A stretch of DNA of 35,824 bases, from IMG/VR virus record IMGVR_UViG_3300006637_000009, positions 1-35,824 of that record. One strand, 5' to 3'. The position numbers were made by a program, and so were the translations under genes. The stretch's first letter is position 1. Each line of letters starts with the position of its first letter. Positions 3,546 to 34,278 of this stretch are shown one piece after another. The stretch comes from a virus. The notes beneath the pieces are model-generated. The model searched no databases, was not told where the DNA came from, and saw nothing but the letters and a program-made list of their open reading frames with translations.

Positions 3546-5293
3546 TGGCTGGAACAACGATTGACCTAGATGAAATGATTGATCCACACGCACTAGCCGT
3601 GGAAATCTCATCCCGTTGGGACAAATGGAATTTAAATAGACAGAATAAGATTGACGAGTGGAAAGAACTTCGTAATTATATTTATGCTACTGACACACGT
3701 ACCACCAGCAACAGCAAACTACCTTGGACTAACAGCACGACAACACCTAAGCTGACCCAGATTGCTGACAACCTTCATGCTAATTATTTCTCTGCTTTGT
3801 TTCCTCAGAAGCGTTGGTTCCGTTTTGAAGCTAACGATGAAGAGTCAAACTTAAAGATGAAGCGTGATGTCATCCAGGCATACATGCAAAGTAAGATCCG
3901 TCAGTCTGACTTCGAGAATACCGTAAGTAAACTAATTAATGACTACATCCAGTATGGTAACTGTTTTGCTACTGTAGATTTTGTCAAAGACTATACGGAG
4001 TATGAGGACACAGGGGAACGCACAGTAAACTACGTCGGCCCTAAGCTAGTCCGTATTAGTCCCTTCGATGTCTGCTTTAATCCTACGGCTCCTTCCTTTA
4101 GCGAAAGCCCTAAGATTGTAAGGTCTATTGTCACCCTCGGAGAGGTAGCACGTAAGGTAGAAGCATCAGCAGATAATGCTTATATGGTTGACATCTTGGA
4201 TAAGATGGTAGGTAACCGTGCAGATGCTTCAGGTCAGGATGTGGATGTAGCTAAGTCTCAGGGTTATGTTGCGGATGGTTTCTCTACCCTTAAGGAATAC
4301 TATGAGTCTAACTACGTAGAGCTTCTGACCTTCTACGGTGACATCCATGATGGAAGCACAGGTAAGTTCCATAAGAATCGTGTTATTACTGTTGTTGATC
4401 GTGCTTACGTTCTTGTCAATAAACAGAACCCTAGTTGGTTAGGTAAGGCTCCTGTCTTCCACGCTGGCTGGCGTGAGCGCCCTGACAACCTCTATGCCAT
4501 GGGGCCACTAGATAACCTCGTGGGTATGCAGTATCGCATTGACCACTTGGAGAACCTAAAGGCTGACGTATTCGATCAGATCGCCTACCCCATCATGAAG
4601 ATCCGTGGGGACGTAGAGGACTTCGACTTTGAGCCTGGCTCCCGTATCTACTTAGGTGAAGAGGGTGACGTAGGTTACCTAGCACCAGACGCTACAGCCC
4701 TTAACGCTGACTTCCAGATACAGAACCTAGAGAACAAAATGGAGATGCTTGCAGGTGCCCCTCGTGAAGCCATGGGTATCCGTAGTGCAGGTGAAAAGAC
4801 AGCCTTCGAGGTTAACCAGCTTATGACAGCTGCTGGTCGTATCTTCCAACATAAGACAGCTCACTTCGAACGTGTCTTCCTTGAGCCTATCCTTAACTCT
4901 ATGCTTGAGGCCTCACGCCGTAACATGGACTATGCTGACACCATACGTATCCTTGACGATGACACGGGTATTTCCTTCTTTGAGCAGATCACTAAGGAAG
5001 ACATCAAGGCTAACGGTAAGATTGTTCCTATGGGTGCTCGTCACTTTGCTGAACGTGCTAATCGTTTGCAGAGCCTGACACAACTCTACCAGCTTAAGTT
5101 GTCAGATCCTACCATGGCTGCCCACTTGTCAGGTAAAGAGTTTGCTCGTCTGTTGGCTGACGAACTGGGTGAACCAGCACTCTTCAGTGAAAACGTCACA
5201 GTAACAGAACAAATGGAAACTCAGAAGATTGCTACTGAGGCACAGGTTCAGTACGAAGAAGAACAACAGATTGCTATAGAGCAAGGACTCTAA
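3545..5293 (+). CDS. Portal protein (head-tail connector)
   Basis: 582 residues, similar in size to the T7 gp8 family. It would form the dodecameric ring at the capsid vertex through which terminase packages DNA and onto which the tail assembles. The N-terminal part (RWDKWNLNRQNKIDEWKELR) and the central conserved stretch (around NLYAMGPLDNLVGMQYRIDH) are typical of T7-like connector proteins; the C-terminus is Glu/Gln-rich. The gene is followed immediately by a small gene, scaffold and capsid, the standard order. An AAGGA site lies about ten bases before the ATG. Confidence 0.9.
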   Translation: MAGTTIDLDEMIDPHALAVEISSRWDKWNLNRQNKIDEWKELRNYIYATDTRTTSNSKLPWTNSTTTPKLTQIADNLHANYFSALFPQKRWFRFEANDEESNLKMKRDVIQAYMQSKIRQSDFENTVSKLINDYIQYGNCFATVDFVKDYTEYEDTGERTVNYVGPKLVRISPFDVCFNPTAPSFSESPKIVRSIVTLGEVARKVEASADNAYMVDILDKMVGNRADASGQDVDVAKSQGYVADGFSTLKEYYESNYVELLTFYGDIHDGSTGKFHKNRVITVVDRAYVLVNKQNPSWLGKAPVFHAGWRERPDNLYAMGPLDNLVGMQYRIDHLENLKADVFDQIAYPIMKIRGDVEDFDFEPGSRIYLGEEGDVGYLAPDATALNADFQIQNLENKMEMLAGAPREAMGIRSAGEKTAFEVNQLMTAAGRIFQHKTAHFERVFLEPILNSMLEASRRNMDYADTIRILDDDTGISFFEQITKEDIKANGKIVPMGARHFAERANRLQSLTQLYQLKLSDPTMAAHLSGKEFARLLADELGEPALFSENVTVTEQMETQKIATEAQVQYEEEQQIAIEQGL

Positions 5294-6327: not shown

Positions 6328-7323
6328 ATGGCTGGTATGAATACAGTAGGTACAGGCGCAACAGCTGCAAGCAACGTCGGTACTAACCTTGTCCGCAGTG
6401 AACTGTGGTCCTCAGAACTAAAAGAACTTCTCCGTGATGAGATGATGGCACAACGGTACGTCCGTATGCTTGAAGGTTTCCCTGATGGAGACACTTTCAA
6501 TATCCCACAGATCGGTGCAATCGTAACTAATGATTACACAGACGACACACAAGTTACCTACGATCCACTGGATACAGCAAACTTCACATTCACCGTTGAC
6601 AAGTATTTGTCATCTGCGTCTTACATCACCAAGAAAGCTGCACAGGATTCGTTCTACAGTGCACAGCTTGAAGCACGTTTTGTTCCAGAACAAGCCCGTG
6701 CTATTCTTGAGCACTTCGAAACTACTACTTTCGCTGCTCCTGAAGTTGGTGTGTCTGCAAACTCAGCAGAAGCACAAAACGGTATTGCTCATCGTATCTC
6801 TGGTGGTAATGGTGGTCGGATCGAACTGGCTGACTTCGCATATGCACGTTACGCATTGAAGAAAGCATCTGTTCCTGATCGTGGCCTGGTTGCTATCGTT
6901 GATCCATCTGTTGAGTTCCAACTGAACACATTGTCTAACATCGTTGGTGTTGCTAACAACCCAATGTTTGAAGGTATTGTTCGTGATGGTATCGCAACAG
7001 GTATGCGCTTTGTAGCTAACGTATACGGCTTTGACGTATATACATCTAACTTCCTCAAGTCTACAGTCTCTGACTCTGCCTTGCTGGAACGTGATGGTTC
7101 TACAGCTAACGCATTCAACGTGAACAACGGTGTTGCTAACTACTTCATGTCCACTGAAGGTGATGCTAACCCATTCGTGGGTGCATGGCGTCAACAGCCT
7201 GAGGTAGACTACGAGTACAACAAAGACTTCCAACGCCATGAGTATGTAACAACTGCTCGTTACGGTGTTAAGAAGTACCGTTCAGAAGGTATCGTTACTG
7301 TTGTAACTAACCCTGACGTATAA
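6328..7323 (+). CDS. Major capsid protein
   Basis: 331 residues, matching the size of T7 gp10A-type coat proteins with an HK97-like fold. The protein begins with a Gly/Thr/Ala-rich flexible arm and continues with the ordered core (SELWSSELKELLRDEM, PQIGAIVTNDY, then the Tyr/Val/Asn-rich C-terminal part). An AAGGAG site lies close before the ATG, the strongest of the head genes. The gene is followed by a rho-independent terminator and then a consensus promoter, so the head module ends here. Codon use is very regular (many GTT/GCT/AAC), as expected for a very highly expressed gene. Confidence 0.9.
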   Translation: MAGMNTVGTGATAASNVGTNLVRSELWSSELKELLRDEMMAQRYVRMLEGFPDGDTFNIPQIGAIVTNDYTDDTQVTYDPLDTANFTFTVDKYLSSASYITKKAAQDSFYSAQLEARFVPEQARAILEHFETTTFAAPEVGVSANSAEAQNGIAHRISGGNGGRIELADFAYARYALKKASVPDRGLVAIVDPSVEFQLNTLSNIVGVANNPMFEGIVRDGIATGMRFVANVYGFDVYTSNFLKSTVSDSALLERDGSTANAFNVNNGVANYFMSTEGDANPFVGAWRQQPEVDYEYNKDFQRHEYVTTARYGVKKYRSEGIVTVVTNPDV

Positions 7324-7331
7324 AAACTAAC

Positions 7332-7353
7332 GGGGTGTCCCTTCGGGGGCACC
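7332..7353 (+). terminator. Rho-independent terminator after the capsid gene
   Basis: A ten-pair stem with a TTCG tetraloop (GGGGTGTCCC-TTCG-GGGGCACCTC, two wobble pairs), eight bases after the capsid stop codon. The downstream T-tract is short and interrupted (ACTTTCTGT), so termination may be partial, which would let tail genes be read from both the head transcript and the promoter just downstream. It also would protect the capsid mRNA 3' end. Confidence 0.85.
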
Positions 7354-7365
7354 TCACTTTCTGTA

Positions 7366-7394
7366 TTGACAAAAGTTATTAGTTAGTATATAAT
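7366..7394 (+). promoter_or_regulatory. Perfect sigma-70 consensus promoter
   Basis: TTGACA at 7366-7371 and TATAAT at 7389-7394 with an exact 17-base spacer, following the capsid terminator. Both boxes and the spacing are the bacterial housekeeping consensus. Transcription would start around 7401, giving a leader of about 43 bases before the ATG at 7444. It would be recognised by unmodified host RNA polymerase and drive the tail, internal virion and lysis genes. Confidence 0.9.
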
Positions 7395-7443
7395 AAATTA
7401 AACCTTGGCAGGGGCGATAGTATATATCCCTATAGGAGCTACG

Positions 7444-8010
7444 ATGGCTAACGTAAATCACTCAACACTCACAGATCCATACTTACATGAACCTAAGAAT
7501 ATTTCTTCGGCTATATCTGGTGCAGTTTATGTAGCTGACGGTACAGGCTCTGGTGACTGGTATCAAAACAGTCGTTTCATCGGAGCTTACATTGCCTTTG
7601 ATGCAACAACACCATCATACACACATTCAGTAACAACATCTGACACACCCTTAAATCCTACTTTTGTAATTGCTGAGTCTAATGGGTTTACAGGAGTGAC
7701 CTCACCTAATGCTCGTCTAAAGTATACAGGTTTAGAGGATATAGAAGCTCAGATTGTGTTTACAATTTCTTCTAAACAAACTGGTGGCAGTAATCACGAT
7801 GTACAGTTCGCTCTCTTTAAAAATGGAACAGAGTTGTCAGGTTCTCGTACTATACGTACAATTAGTTCAGGTTCTTGGGGTTCTATTTCTGTTTTCGGGT
7901 ACACTTCCTTTTCGCAAAATGATTACCTAGAGGTAAAAATCAAAGGTGATTCTTCATTTACCTTAGACGTAGCTTCTGCCTTTATGTCAGTTATGGGGTC
8001 GGCAGCGTAA
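7444..8010 (+). CDS. Virion structural protein, probable capsid decoration or adhesin
   Basis: 188 residues from the ATG at 7444, chosen because AGGAG lies five bases upstream and because the alternative TTG at 7405 falls at the predicted transcription start. The N-terminus (HSTLTDPYLHEPKN) resembles a conserved opening seen in structural proteins of other marine phages; the remainder is Ser/Thr/Gly-rich beta structure resembling a jelly-roll (C1q/TNF-like) domain ending in SAFMSVMG. It is the first gene after the consensus promoter, implying high expression, which suits a protein present in many copies on the head or at the collar. Function is inferred from location and fold impression. Confidence 0.6.
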   Translation: MANVNHSTLTDPYLHEPKNISSAISGAVYVADGTGSGDWYQNSRFIGAYIAFDATTPSYTHSVTTSDTPLNPTFVIAESNGFTGVTSPNARLKYTGLEDIEAQIVFTISSKQTGGSNHDVQFALFKNGTELSGSRTIRTISSGSWGSISVFGYTSFSQNDYLEVKIKGDSSFTLDVASAFMSVMGSAA

Positions 8011-8735
8011 TGAAAACAACACTCTTACAAATTGTACAGTCTATTTTGTCAGACATGGACTCAGAGGATGTTAATAGTCTTACTGATACAGTAGAAGCAC
8101 AACAAATTGCGTCAGTAGTAGAAGATACATACTACAACATTATAGCTGCCAGGGAGATCCCTGAGCATAGTCGTTTGTTGTCCCTCGTAGCTTTAGCTGA
8201 TACCAACAAGCCTACTCACTTTAAGTACCCAACAGACACAAAGAAGATCACACGGATTGAGTACAACGTAGGTACAGTAGCAAACAAAGAATTTAAGCAG
8301 ATCTACTTCGTTGATCCTTTAGTATTCCTTGACCGTATGGATGAAGCAAATACTTTAGTAGAAACTTTTGAAGGAAGTGTAGACATCTTTGTAGCTTCTG
8401 ATCGTGACCCTGCTTACTATACTTCCTTTGATGATGAGTACTTGATCTTTGACTCCTTTAACTCAGCAGAAGAAACATCTCTTCAAGCATCAAAGACACG
8501 GGCATGGGGTTCTGTTTATCCTACGTTCAGCCAGACAGATGCCTTCGAGCCGGACCTTGACAACACACTTATGCCTCTCCTTTTAGCTGAAGCTAAGTCA
8601 GCTTGTTTCTCTTTGTTCAAGGGTGGATCAGACCCTAAGGTAGAACAGGCTGCTCGTCGTTTGAAGTCGTATGTACAGAATGACCAGTACAAGAGCAAAC
8701 GAGCTAACAAAAGAAATAGTTATGGGCGTCATTAA
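8010..8735 (+). CDS. Tail tubular protein A (head-tail adaptor, T7 gp11-like)
   Basis: 241 residues, close to the T7 gp11 family length. The N-terminal part (ILSDMDSEDVNSLTDTVEAQQIA) and the central aromatic beta region are typical of this adaptor, which forms the ring between portal and nozzle in short-tailed phages. The start overlaps the previous stop by one base (TAATG). It is followed by a small gene and tail tubular protein B, keeping the T7 order apart from that insertion. Confidence 0.82.
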   Translation: MKTTLLQIVQSILSDMDSEDVNSLTDTVEAQQIASVVEDTYYNIIAAREIPEHSRLLSLVALADTNKPTHFKYPTDTKKITRIEYNVGTVANKEFKQIYFVDPLVFLDRMDEANTLVETFEGSVDIFVASDRDPAYYTSFDDEYLIFDSFNSAEETSLQASKTRAWGSVYPTFSQTDAFEPDLDNTLMPLLLAEAKSACFSLFKGGSDPKVEQAARRLKSYVQNDQYKSKRANKRNSYGRH

Positions 8736-29027: not shown

Positions 29028-30053
29028 TTAGTGTGTGTCCTTCCAATTCTTACCGATGTCAGTTGACCCAGCTAGAGGACACATCATACCGAATTTAACT
29101 CCTGTGTCAACAATAGATTGACGTTGTAGTGAACCTAATTGTTCTGCTTCTTCCATGCCACCACGGATCTCTGTCTGCCACTCATCGTGAGGCCAGGTGA
29201 CCAGCTTGAAGTCTAGGTTCTGCTGCTTTGCCTCACGCACCCACTGTAGGGCTGCATGTTTCATGATGACAGACTCACCATTCTGTAGCATACCAGCCAA
29301 GGCTTTGTGCTCGGAGGGAACCTTGACCTTACGCCCATCTAAACCTTTGAAGTAACCACGTCCAGCAACGTAAGGTATAATCTTCTTCTTCAGCTCAGAC
29401 AATCCTTGGATAGATTCCATGAAATTATCTACTGCTTGTGTTGCTTCCTTACGGTTTACCTTTAGGATCTGAGAGATCTTTTCGTTACCTGCTCCTAGCA
29501 GGAAGGCGTAGATGAATGTCTTAGCCATGTCTCTCGTGATGTGTGACATACCCAAGGCCTTGCGGTTTAAGTTGTGGATGTCTGTCTCATTCTCCTTACG
29601 GCCTGACACAATAGCGTGTACATATTCTTCTGACTTCATGAGGTGCGCAAGTACTCGTAGCTGGATACCTTCTGCGTCAGTACCCACCAACAAACAACCA
29701 TCAGGCGTTGTCCATAGGCTGCGGAACCTACCATCGTACCTGTGCTTCACCTCCTCAACGGCAGACTTAGGTGTGCCATGGAACTCCGATGGGATGTTGG
29801 CTTGGTTAGGTGCTCGGTGTGCCATACGTCCTGTCCATGCACCGATGTGTGCAAACCTACCATGAATACGGTGATCGTCCTTAACGTGGCCTAGCCACTC
29901 CACCAGGGAGCTTCTGCGTCCCTCCAAAGTCAACCACTCAGCTAACCTCTTGCCTCCCTCAGGGGCTGAGTCTGGTAGTGTGTTAAGGTTTGCTTCGGAT
30001 AGTGTCCACCCGTACTTAGCAAACTTATCTCCTCTCATAGCATTGTCTTGCAT
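29028..30053 (-). CDS. DNA polymerase family A, C-terminal (polymerase) part of a split gene
   Basis: 341 residues holding the polymerase fold. Motif A is DAEGIQLR (Asp126), motif B RDMAKTFIYAFLLGAG (Arg174, Lys178, Tyr182), motif C HDE (289-291). No exonuclease domain: that half is encoded separately upstream, with an HNH gene between. The ATG at 30053 has AAGGA seven bases upstream, and an in-frame TAG lies two codons before it, so this half is translated on its own. The two products probably assemble into one enzyme resembling T7 gp5. The position equal to Tyr766 of E. coli Pol I is Leu186. Confidence 0.88.
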   Translation of the reverse strand: MQDNAMRGDKFAKYGWTLSEANLNTLPDSAPEGGKRLAEWLTLEGRRSSLVEWLGHVKDDHRIHGRFAHIGAWTGRMAHRAPNQANIPSEFHGTPKSAVEEVKHRYDGRFRSLWTTPDGCLLVGTDAEGIQLRVLAHLMKSEEYVHAIVSGRKENETDIHNLNRKALGMSHITRDMAKTFIYAFLLGAGNEKISQILKVNRKEATQAVDNFMESIQGLSELKKKIIPYVAGRGYFKGLDGRKVKVPSEHKALAGMLQNGESVIMKHAALQWVREAKQQNLDFKLVTWPHDEWQTEIRGGMEEAEQLGSLQRQSIVDTGVKFGMMCPLAGSTDIGKNWKDTH

Positions 30054-30684
30054 ATTCTAATCCTTCTTGTATCGTTATCTTTATTTCAAGGTCTACACTA
30101 GCCTTCTTAGATAGGTTGTCAGTGGCTGGTATCACCTGTAGGTTACCTGACCAGTGAGGACCACCGTCAGACAATGGCCACATGTGATCGACGTGATGCT
30201 GAATGCCTGTCACCTTTGTCATTAGGCTACGTAGCTTGTATGTGTCTACCCTTCTCTTCTTTTCTACCTCACAATCAAGTATGAACTCAGGTGTGTTAGA
30301 TTTTTTTAGTGCAACTCTTTTAACGTTTGCTTCATTGTAATATTCCCTATTAGTTTGATAGTATTCTTTGAAGTATTCCCTGTTAGCTTCCCTGTTAGCT
30401 TCCTTGTTAGCTTTTCGGTAAGCTTTGCGATAATCTGCTATAGCTTCCTTGTTAGCTTTTCGGTAAGCTTTGTTATAATCTGCCATAGCTTCCTTGTTAT
30501 CTTGACAGTAAGCTTTATTACAAACTTTACATTCTGTTTGATGACCATCCCTTTTTGACCTATTTTTACTGAAATAATCAAGAGGCTTAACCTCACCACA
30601 CTTAGAGCAAGACTTACTTTCTTGATGACCAAACAGTTCTAGTTGCATCCCTTTCATACTGTATGTGTCCTTTCGTTTTCTCAT
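30025..30684 (-). CDS. HNH endonuclease inserted in the DNA polymerase gene
   Basis: 219 residues. The N-terminus has two CxxC pairs (Cys26/29, Cys52/55) around EVKPLDYFSKNRSKRDGHQTE, a zinc-finger module often found in phage HNH proteins. A Lys/Glu/Asn/Tyr repeat region (56-105) follows, then the HNH core HHVDHMWPLSDGG (His167), NLQVI, NLSKK (Asn190-Lys193). It overlaps the exonuclease half by 71 bases and the polymerase half by 29. An internal ATG at 30657 preceded by AAAGGA is an alternative start. It is almost as long as the whole gap between polymerase halves, leaving no room for a group I intron core outside the ORF. Confidence 0.85.
   Translation of the reverse strand: MRKRKDTYSMKGMQLELFGHQESKSCSKCGEVKPLDYFSKNRSKRDGHQTECKVCNKAYCQDNKEAMADYNKAYRKANKEAIADYRKAYRKANKEANREANREYFKEYYQTNREYYNEANVKRVALKKSNTPEFILDCEVEKKRRVDTYKLRSLMTKVTGIQHHVDHMWPLSDGGPHWSGNLQVIPATDNLSKKASVDLEIKITIQEGLEYARQCYERR
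30399..30525 (-). repeat. 45-base tandem repeat in the HNH gene
   Basis: Two near-identical 45-base units (30399-30443 and 30444-30488) and a partial, diverged third (30489 to about 30525). They encode a 15-residue unit around NKAYRKANKEAIADY. The unit keeps the reading frame and extends the linker between the zinc finger and the HNH core. Copies differ by a few bases, so the duplication is recent. Confidence 0.85.
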
Positions 30685-31522
30685 ATGGTGTCCACCCTGC
30701 TTCCCAAAGTCTTTCTATACGCATCTTAGGGGAGGCAGGATTAAACTCTATGTAGTCATAGCAGACTAGCTCAGGTGGTTGAGCTGCCCAGTCTACTACT
30801 GTCTTCTCGTACTGCTCGTGTGCCTTGGTTACGTTAGAGAAAAGAGAACCATCAGCCTTACGCCTATACTTTATACGGTTTACCTCTTGTAGTTGGGGAG
30901 GGAAGTCCTCTTGGAAGGCATCGGTTAGCTCTAGCATCCTTAACTCTATCTCATCAAGCAATGTCTCTGCTTGGTTCTGATCGAAGTAGAAGCCATTGTC
31001 TGTCATCTCTTCACATAGCATCTGGATCTCATGTTCACACCTGATGGCCTCATCCCACGTAGGATCATTGATGACAGGCTTAAGTGTATTGTAGAGCAGC
31101 ACCGTCACAGTAACATCCTGATGACAGTAGAAGATCATCTCTTCTGTTAGGGCTGAGAAGTCCTTGAAGTCTAGCTTATGGTCACCTAGTCTACGCCCCC
31201 ATGCCTTGAGGCTATGTCCTTTGCCATCCAAAGTGTAGTCCACTAGGCGTGACACAATCAGGGTGTCAAGTACTTTGTGTAAGTCAACAACAGTTTCACC
31301 AAGCAACCTGTTAATTACTGGGACATCGAAGGCAATGCCGTTGTGAAATACAAATGTTTCAACATCAGCGCAGTACTCTATGAACCTTTGTTTCTCCTCT
31401 TCTATGTGTGACACATTAAGGAATTGTTCTGTTTCCCCTGTGTCTATGTCCTTGGCACAGATAACCCAGATGCGTGTGGCATCAATGTCGTCTGTCTCTA
31501 TGTCCATTGCTACGGTTTTCAT
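30614..31522 (-). CDS. DNA polymerase family A, N-terminal (3'-5' exonuclease) part of a split gene
   Basis: 302 residues with the proofreading exonuclease motifs: AMDIET (Asp7, Glu9), FVFHNGIAFD (Asp66) and YCHQD (Tyr132, Asp136), and the start of the polymerase thumb region ending FNPASPKMRIERLWEAGW-TPYEKTKGH, where T7-like polymerases go straight on into the polymerase domain. Here the frame runs into about 13 non-matching residues and stops, because an HNH gene is inserted. It starts in the stop of the membrane protein gene (ATGA). Activity would need association with the C-terminal product. Confidence 0.87.
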   Translation of the reverse strand: MKTVAMDIETDDIDATRIWVICAKDIDTGETEQFLNVSHIEEEKQRFIEYCADVETFVFHNGIAFDVPVINRLLGETVVDLHKVLDTLIVSRLVDYTLDGKGHSLKAWGRRLGDHKLDFKDFSALTEEMIFYCHQDVTVTVLLYNTLKPVINDPTWDEAIRCEHEIQMLCEEMTDNGFYFDQNQAETLLDEIELRMLELTDAFQEDFPPQLQEVNRIKYRRKADGSLFSNVTKAHEQYEKTVVDWAAQPPELVCYDYIEFNPASPKMRIERLWEAGWTPYEKTKGHIQYERDATRTVWSSRK

Positions 31523-33848: not shown

Positions 33849-33982
33849 CCCACTATCTCCGTTTTGACACCATCCATACGACTATAAATCTCGGCATGTT
33901 TCTCCGCCTCGTCCAGTCTCTTGCATGTATGATAGCAGATCTCTTGGTTTGTTCTCTTGCTGGTCAGTACAATACGGATCAT
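33836..33982 (-). CDS. Short hypothetical protein downstream of an HNH gene
   Basis: 48 residues (MIRIVLTSKRTNQEICYHTC ... VTQ). The ATG lies in the stop of the HNH gene (ATGA) and has GAGGAG about nine bases upstream; its own stop overlaps the next gene in the same way. Cys16 and Cys20 are the only notable residues; the rest is a charged helix (KRLDEAEKHAEIY). It fills the gap between the HNH gene and the 62-residue gene completely, which supports it being real. Confidence 0.6.
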   Translation of the reverse strand: MIRIVLTSKRTNQEICYHTCKRLDEAEKHAEIYSRMDGVKTEIVGVTQ

Positions 33983-34278
33983 GAGCCTAACTCCTCTCTG
34001 TGATGTTGGTTTGCATATGTGTGGACAGCGTGACAGTTAGCACAAAGAACCTCACACTTTGACAGCTCCGTCTTGATTGTATCAATGACACCTTTCTTCA
34101 CTAACTCAGAGACATTCTTGAACTTAGTGCTGGGATCTATGTGGTTCATTTGTAGTGCTACAGGATGTTCGGCAAAGCCACACCTATTGCAGCCTTGGTT
34201 CATCTTGTAGTTGTCAACAAATGCCTTGGCCCTTGCTACCCTTACAACCTCTAACTGTCTTGCCCTTGTCCTTGTCAT
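33979..34278 (-). CDS. HNH endonuclease (short, zinc-containing)
   Basis: 99 residues. A basic N-terminus is followed by CNRCG (Cys30, Cys33), LQMNHIDP (His46) and CEVLCANCHAVHTY (Cys79, Cys82, His83), the classical zinc-bound HNH nuclease core. It may be a homing enzyme, or serve DNA nicking as some phage HNH proteins do beside terminases; here it is far from terL. Both ends overlap neighbours by ATGA. The gene and the following 48-residue gene lie exactly between two copies of a 16-base repeat. Confidence 0.85.
   Translation of the reverse strand: MTRTRARQLEVVRVARAKAFVDNYKMNQGCNRCGFAEHPVALQMNHIDPSTKFKNVSELVKKGVIDTIKTELSKCEVLCANCHAVHTYANQHHREELGS

Follow-up and report, generated by a model that had tools for sequence, protein, structure and literature searches.

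The window analysed here, the whole 35,824-nt stretch, is an IMG/VR fragment lacking the late-arm head that is present in its relatives. Homologous capsid, portal and replication genes and the two-arm plan place the window in the Cobavirinae (Zobellviridae), with the late genes on the plus strand and the replication genes on the minus strand. The best protein and DNA matches are CRP-5, ICBM2 and CRP-4, followed by SIO1, ICBM1 and P12053L, and the host fields of these records give marine Rhodobacteraceae. In a capsid-gene tree with a Siovirus root, the window sits among loci including ICBM2, CRP-4 and CRP-5, and its capsid protein is 76.5% identical to the annotated major capsid protein of ICBM2. 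A PHROGs scan of 30 of the 110 mechanically listed open reading frames (ORFs) gave no match to an RNA polymerase family, in agreement with the initial annotation, which had seen no phage RNA polymerase in the window. Cobaviruses and CRP phages have been reported to lack an RNA polymerase (PMC6775973, PMC6918029). A weak match to a sigma factor (phrog_5767, E 1.6e-4, 34 residues) on the ORF at 30025-30684 was dropped, since the endonuclease VII-like matches of this ORF are stronger and explain it better. The DNA polymerase at 29028-31522 (minus strand) comprises two frames with an endonuclease VII-like frame in between; the polymerases of ICBM2 and CRP-5 are also in two frames, but no endonuclease VII-like insert is annotated there.

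Table 1 Features around the end of the capsid gene in the window, and terminase-start promoter sites in relatives
Feature	Position	Strand	Basis
Major capsid protein gene, upstream transcription unit	6328..7323	+	phrog_267 major head protein, E 5.5e-34
Terminator-like hairpin, 10 pairs, UUCG loop	7332..7355	+	sequence, fold, covariation
Interrupted T tract between hairpin and -35 box	7356..7365	+	sequence
-35 box TTGACA	7366..7371	+	sequence; 98% mean pairwise identity over 16 N17 clusters
-10 box TATAAT, T at -7	7389..7394	+	sequence; last-position T in 20/20 promoter-bearing clusters
Conserved start-of-transcript sequence TTAAACCTTGGCAGGG, predicted start near 7401	7398..7413	+	16 clusters
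Predicted 5' leader of ~43 nt, AGGAG at 7434-7438	7401..7443	+	sequence
First gene served, 188 aa, N-terminal MANVNHSTLTDPYLHEPK and TNF/C1q-like jelly roll	7444..8010	+	phrog_38624, unknown function
Tail tubular protein A-like gene, next in operon	8010..8735	+	phrog_7592 tail protein, E 1e-68
Terminase-start promoter site, L095 (G016)	7252-7281		
Terminase-start promoter site, L089 (CRP-5)	33916-33944	-	
Terminase-start promoter site, L088 (ICBM2)	33987-34015	-	

The stem of the hairpin starts 8 bases past the capsid stop codon. It reads GGGGTGTCCC-TTCG-GGGGCACCTC with a C(UUCG)G loop, which confirms the TTCG-capped hairpin proposed initially. The hairpin folds in its context with -19.6 kcal/mol (z -3.9 vs. 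200 shuffles) and is G+C-rich and stable, as is typical of intrinsic terminators. The T tract behind the stem, ACTTTCTGTA, is interrupted and its longest run is 3, so that the hairpin of the window is on paper a mediocre intrinsic terminator. Terminator-like sites as a class show no excess over shuffles in the window. A match to the RNA family RF01489 was sub-threshold (24.1 bits, gathering 45) and was taken as a resemblance between hairpins rather than as a known RNA family at the site.

Hairpin and -35 box are separated by 10 bases, not by the 12 given in the initial annotation. Direct reading of the sequence showed that the sigma-70 boxes at 7366-7394 are exact in both boxes and in spacing, as had been claimed, with 12 of 12 positions matching and a 17-nt spacer, and this is the only 12-of-12 site within the window. 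A dinucleotide model gives a chance expectation of 0.0068 exact N17 sites per window on both strands, and of 1.6e-5 in one 120-nt gap on one strand. Mechanical promoter scans of the window found 23 sites vs. 28.8 expected from shuffles and 24 vs. 27.1 expected. Promoter-like sites in general thus show no excess, and only the exactness and the conservation of the site carry weight. Among the non-coding sites of the window, the post-capsid one alone has no more than one mismatch at a spacing of 16-18 nt; one-mismatch sites in the terminase (1751-1779) and DNA polymerase (29083-29110) genes are coding and were therefore not counted as promoters.

No second copy of the start-of-transcript sequence with up to three mismatches was found in the window. 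The predicted leader has no significant fold (z 0.73), and a structured leader was rejected. The start of the downstream gene is best placed at the ATG at 7444 behind the AGGAG, not at the TTG at 7405 that the mechanical ORF list gives. The structure model of the 188-aa product has a pLDDT of 81.9, with residues 1-14 under 50. Foldseek comparisons of the model gave BxpB/ExsFA exosporium proteins as the best matches (E 3.8e-7, TM-score by query 0.54) and also matched TNF-family ligands; among viral models, the first match is the CRP-5 homologue. By sequence, the protein has no match among solved structures and no Pfam match. TNF/C1q-like jelly rolls occur in many phage fibre and decoration proteins, and the modelled fold suggests that the protein is probably located at the virion surface. 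Its homologues share a conserved N-terminus, whereas their C-terminal parts differ in kind (152-156 or 187-190 aa). Close relatives carry at least two kinds of C-terminal domain, a pattern that resembles the swapping of modules in a virion surface protein. An HNH-endonuclease-like frame, recognized by eye, lies at 3099-3602 of L044 and also behind the promoter of L019; in both loci it stands between the hairpin or promoter and the place expected for the TNF/C1q-like gene. The syntenic counterpart of the next gene in the operon is annotated as tubular protein A in ICBM2.

Conservation of the hairpin and the promoter

The post-capsid sequences of 80 IMG/VR loci, seven named phages and the window were compared. 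The 80 loci are the best 80 of 512 encoding a relative, so that the counts describe close kin. After exclusion of two loci that are too short (L009 and L075), the remaining 86 form 28 clusters at 90% identity. This search for the terminator-promoter unit in relatives found a hairpin (-13 to -20 kcal/mol) in 27 of the 28 clusters, with L007 as the exception, and a promoter with no more than one mismatch in 20, of which 18 are exact. The spacing is 17 in 16 of the promoter-bearing clusters and 16 in the other 4. The promoter is present in both genera, in the Siovirus members SIO1, ICBM1 and P12053L and in the Veravirus members ICBM2 and CRP-5. Pairwise comparisons of the 16 N17 clusters showed an identity of 98% in the boxes vs. 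47% in the spacer, 48% in the 20 nt upstream and 52% in the 25 nt downstream.

The pairing of the stem is conserved through compensating changes. Covariation was counted in 21 of the 27 hairpin clusters and two further loci (L033, L044, L080, L001, L004 and L005 were left out), which fall into two stem families. In stem family I (13 clusters), both partners vary at 6 of the 10 pairs and 126 of 130 cells are paired, a share that falls to 58-63% when the register is slid. Stem family II (10 loci, of which one cluster supplies three) varies on both sides at 3 of 11 pairs and includes an inner mismatch; 88 of 110 cells are paired vs. 47-69% when slid.

Over 16 clusters, the start-of-transcript stretch consists of TTTA (13-15 of 16), an invariant C (16 of 16) and GGCAGGG (10-14 of 16). 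The motif TTTAACCTTGGCAGGG, with one to three mismatches, is found behind the capsid gene in most of the promoter-bearing sequences searched. The idea that this motif acts as a regulatory element across the genomes of Veravirus-like phages was rejected, as only scattered sites with three mismatches occur elsewhere. In Siovirus, the leader is common, letter for letter, to exactly two promoters per genome. A likeness between the early-head and the post-capsid leaders was seen by eye only.

The post-capsid unit is unannotated in the six genome records examined. The word 'promoter' is absent from the main text of PMC6775973 and PMC6918029, and the unit is described in none of the titles and abstracts listed on promoters of cobaviruses, Zobellviridae and SIO1, on capsid terminators of T7 and podoviruses, or on roseophage transcriptomes.

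The promoter is less uniformly distributed than the hairpin, being present in 64 and absent in 22 of the 86 loci. A quick capsid-gene tree of the 86 rows, with a Siovirus root, requires 7 changes of the promoter label. L057 lacks the promoter although it groups with the promoter-bearing kin of L052, and L069 and L070 lack it beside L072 and L076. This scattered absence indicates that the promoter stretch was probably deleted or swapped by recombination. CRP-4 has kept the hairpin without the post-capsid promoter.

Nine Zobellviridae outside the Cobavirinae were chosen for comparison (Vibrio phages 1.015.O, 1.077.O, ICP2 and 172P1; GP100, Pecta, CW02, PA11 and KZY1). Reading of their sequences showed a hairpin and trailing T's at the end of the capsid block, one or two genes further on, in each of the nine; an automated scan of the nine records misplaced the stem end and gave T runs that are too short in ICP2, Pecta and KZY1. 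No promoter site with fewer than four mismatches was found in or beside the terminator gap in these nine records. The terminator without a promoter in all nine thus suggests an old terminator, to which the post-capsid promoter looks to have been added later. In ICP2, a hairpin-like stretch was also seen by eye directly behind the capsid gene.

Near-consensus promoters in relatives and hosts

Promoter sites were scanned in 18 sequences: the window, six named genomes and eleven IMG/VR records, some of them partial. Sites with one mismatch or none recur at four places. In 7 sequences two divergent sites mark the head of the two arms, in 6 the -10 box overlaps the terminase start, in 3 (Siovirus) the site lies before the portal gene, and in 12 it lies behind the capsid gene. 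ICBM1, SIO1 and P12053L carry a second exact promoter at the head of the late arm, with a leader, AGTCTTAACAAGTCTCCCCTGC, identical to the post-capsid one. In L091, the late-head and post-capsid promoters with AGTCTTAACAAGTCTCCCCTGC lie at 39860-39888 and 29349-29377 (both minus strand), and the same arrangement is seen in L092 (SIO1) and L093 (P12053L). In 6 of the 18 sequences, a near-perfect promoter has the likely ATG of the terminase inside its -10 box (Table 1). Either the transcript would start within the gene and serve the portal and capsid genes, or the terminase start is wrong. An exact consensus promoter of ICBM2 (L088 2645-2672, minus strand) points against the early genes, and sites in G019 (8412-8439) and G022 (4589-4616) resemble it. 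In CRP-4, no TTGACA-N17-TATAAT site with at most one mismatch was found anywhere in the genome. Sites of the form TTGACA-N17/18-TAATATATAAGTAT are present in CRP-4 (L090, reversed) at 1073 (plus strand), 32724 and 38768 (both minus strand), one of them with a mismatch, and once in its kin G012 (joined L103 and L104; 29372, minus strand). This may be a clade-specific form of the promoter.

The same consensus was counted in 35 roseobacter genomes, hand-picked from 80 listed loci out of at least that many. In 15 of these genomes (~59 Mb), no exact TTGACA-N17-TATAAT was found, vs. 2 matches of the reversed control, both in one genome. In the 20 further genomes (~81 Mb), scanned with spacings of 16-18, there were 2 exact matches and 2 in the control. 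When one mismatch was allowed, the 15 genomes gave 23 matches vs. 52 in the control. In comparison, the 18 cobavirus sequences (0.591 Mb) hold 22 exact N17 sites vs. none in the control, and 52 sites with at most one mismatch vs. 8. The eleven IMG/VR records among the 18 were fetched with the knowledge of which of 34 records hold exact sites (25 of 34), so that the density of 22 in 0.591 Mb is biased upward; in the six named genomes by themselves, there are 9 exact N17 sites in 0.24 Mb. Thus, relative to a control of the same letters, the hosts show no excess and the phages a large one. The rarity of exact consensus sites in genomes, stated in general terms by the initial annotation, holds for roseobacters, the genomes compared here.

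The last position of the -10 box is of particular interest in these hosts. Over 60% of the -10 elements of R. sphaeroides lack T at -7, for which CarD has been suggested to compensate (Myers et al., PMC8407463). Most sigma-70 promoters of alphaproteobacteria lack this T, and a dependence on CarD has been proposed for them (Myers 2021). The CarD domain PF02559 was found in 14 of the 15 roseobacter genomes, the exception (G040) being a 1.5-Mb record; where it is present, a short frame of 169-207 aa fits CarD itself and a long frame fits Mfd. In a scan of the phages conditioned on near-consensus boxes, 61 sites fell outside the homologues of 35 window genes, and 50 of these have T at -7. With the full 12-base consensus including -7T, the cobavirus promoters should escape CarD and regulation through CarD; their CarD independence is a prediction from the promoter sequence. 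However, with A, C or G at -7 the 15 host genomes also gave only 1 match vs. 9 in the control, so that the host counts show a general rarity of near-consensus sites rather than a specificity for -7T.

These counts tentatively raise the possibility that cobaviruses take over the host RNA polymerase by promoter sequence alone, using neither a phage polymerase nor a sigma or anti-sigma factor. Their promoters would then be of a kind that the hosts hardly possess, and would act together with the post-capsid terminator. We consider this proposal doubtful, and the rarity of non-T sites at -7 in the hosts lowered its odds a little further.

The proposed relay and alternative readings of the unit

The post-capsid unit is real and conserved, and it is best read as a terminator-promoter relay, to which we give a probability of about 0.7; termination, initiation, strength and timing in this reading are deduced from sequence. 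RNA polymerase passing through the portal, scaffold and capsid genes would meet the hairpin and mostly stop. Ten bases on, the perfect sigma-70 promoter would load fresh host RNA polymerase with a start near 7401, and the restarted polymerase would transcribe the gene of the TNF/C1q-like protein and the tail genes. The relay would uncouple the mRNA level of the capsid gene from that of the genes downstream. T7 achieves such a separation through T-phi and readthrough, whereas in the relay the downstream genes would not need to depend on readthrough.

Alternatively, the hairpin may chiefly be a 3'-end stabiliser or processing site of the capsid mRNA, and the promoter may independently boost the protein encoded next. 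The T runs bear on this reading in both directions. All seven promoterless clusters with a hairpin have kept the hairpin with T runs of at most 2 (L007, which lacks both parts, was left out), and the promoterless phages must read their tail genes through the hairpin unless another promoter exists, which speaks for a stabiliser. However, T runs of 3 to 6 follow the hairpin in 19 of the 20 promoter-bearing clusters, and the hairpin with T's at the same block in all nine Zobellviridae outside the subfamily also argues for termination. We regard a stabiliser as unlikely. The contrast in T runs is as expected if the promoter makes full termination tolerable. Since the clusters are related and the tree requires only 7 changes, few independent events lie behind it. 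A weighted tail score gave a weak contrast between promoter-bearing and promoterless clusters (p 0.029) with overlapping scores: the promoter-bearing window and L072 score 1.17 and 0.22, and two promoterless clusters 1.15 and 1.82. The interrupted T tract and the low tail scores of some promoter-bearing clusters indicate that termination may be partial, and the T run may be a part of the promoter cassette, not of the terminator.

A further reading is a coupled unit, in which a polymerase waiting at the promoter acts as a roadblock that aids a weak terminator, so that the two parts work only together. The distance from the hairpin end to the -35 box is 3 to 22 nt in the 20 clusters and 8 to 15 in 15 of them. 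At distances of 3 to 22 nt, a normal polymerase footprint would cover the release site. The T run is moreover lost together with the promoter. However, phage genomes are compact, and this alone could account for the short distances. We rate the coupled unit, which is compatible with the relay, as unlikely.

The initial annotation had proposed that the promoter may be the main late switch, separating head from tail transcription. In the full form of this reading, the promoter alone would turn on the tail and lysis genes late and part head and tail transcription in time. Its position at the boundary of head and tail genes, its perfect boxes and its standing as the sole non-coding site with at most one mismatch in the window fragment favor this proposal. 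However, the head of the late arm is missing from the window, which leaves its promoter set incomplete, and the relatives have further exact or one-mismatch promoters, at the late-arm head with the same leader (ICBM1, SIO1 and P12053L), at the terminase start or before the portal gene, whereas the post-capsid promoter is missing in 22 of 86 loci. The post-capsid promoter is thus one of a set, which counts against a main switch. A consensus host promoter should fire once the DNA enters the cell and is expected to be constitutive. Moreover, the tail genes come only after the first gene served, which encodes the TNF/C1q-like protein and is no tail gene. A main late switch is therefore improbable; what stands of the earlier interpretation is the conserved terminator-promoter unit, the lack of a detected RNA polymerase and the rarity of exact sites. 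A chance match or sequencing artefact, which the lack of excess in the mechanical scans might suggest, is ruled out for practical purposes by the recurrence of the promoter at the same place in two genera despite diverged spacers, with 0.007 sites expected per window.

Comparison with known systems

The unit would give a precise and testable map of how these marine phages apportion the host polymerase, and the contrast with the roseobacter genomes provides a handle on alphaproteobacterial promoters and perhaps on CarD. As a putative intrinsic terminator, the hairpin has a counterpart in the same phages, the bidirectional rho-independent terminator annotated in ICBM1 and ICBM2 (PMC6775973). However, the bidirectional terminator sits at the junction of the arms, whereas the post-capsid unit lies behind the capsid gene. 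The promoter resembles the consensus sigma-70 promoters of phages that use the host RNA polymerase, with TTGACA-N17-TATAAT and a start predicted ~7 nt past the -10 box. It differs from them in that the 12 positions are kept in most promoter-bearing members at an internal late position, in the conserved start-of-transcript sequence, and in the near-absence of the site from the 35 host-like genomes.

The closest parallels in position are found in podoviruses of a related plan. T7 has a single terminator for its phage polymerase, T-phi, immediately after gene 10, and expression of its genes 11 and 12 relies on readthrough (PMC5592923); in LUZ100, what appears to be a strong terminator lies directly behind the capsid gene (PMC10134795). 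The cobavirus hairpin likewise lies right behind the major capsid gene and ahead of the tail genes, the position of the T-phi class. However, transcription in T7 and LUZ100 relies on a phage RNA polymerase, whereas no such single-subunit polymerase was found among the 30 ORFs scanned in the window, a fragment. T7-like phages retain a terminator at this position, the cost of which in T7 is readthrough into the following genes. In the window and many of its relatives a host-type promoter directly follows the hairpin, which suggests another solution for phages with a related plan that carry no RNA polymerase: the capsid transcript would be ended and transcription restarted with a perfect host promoter.
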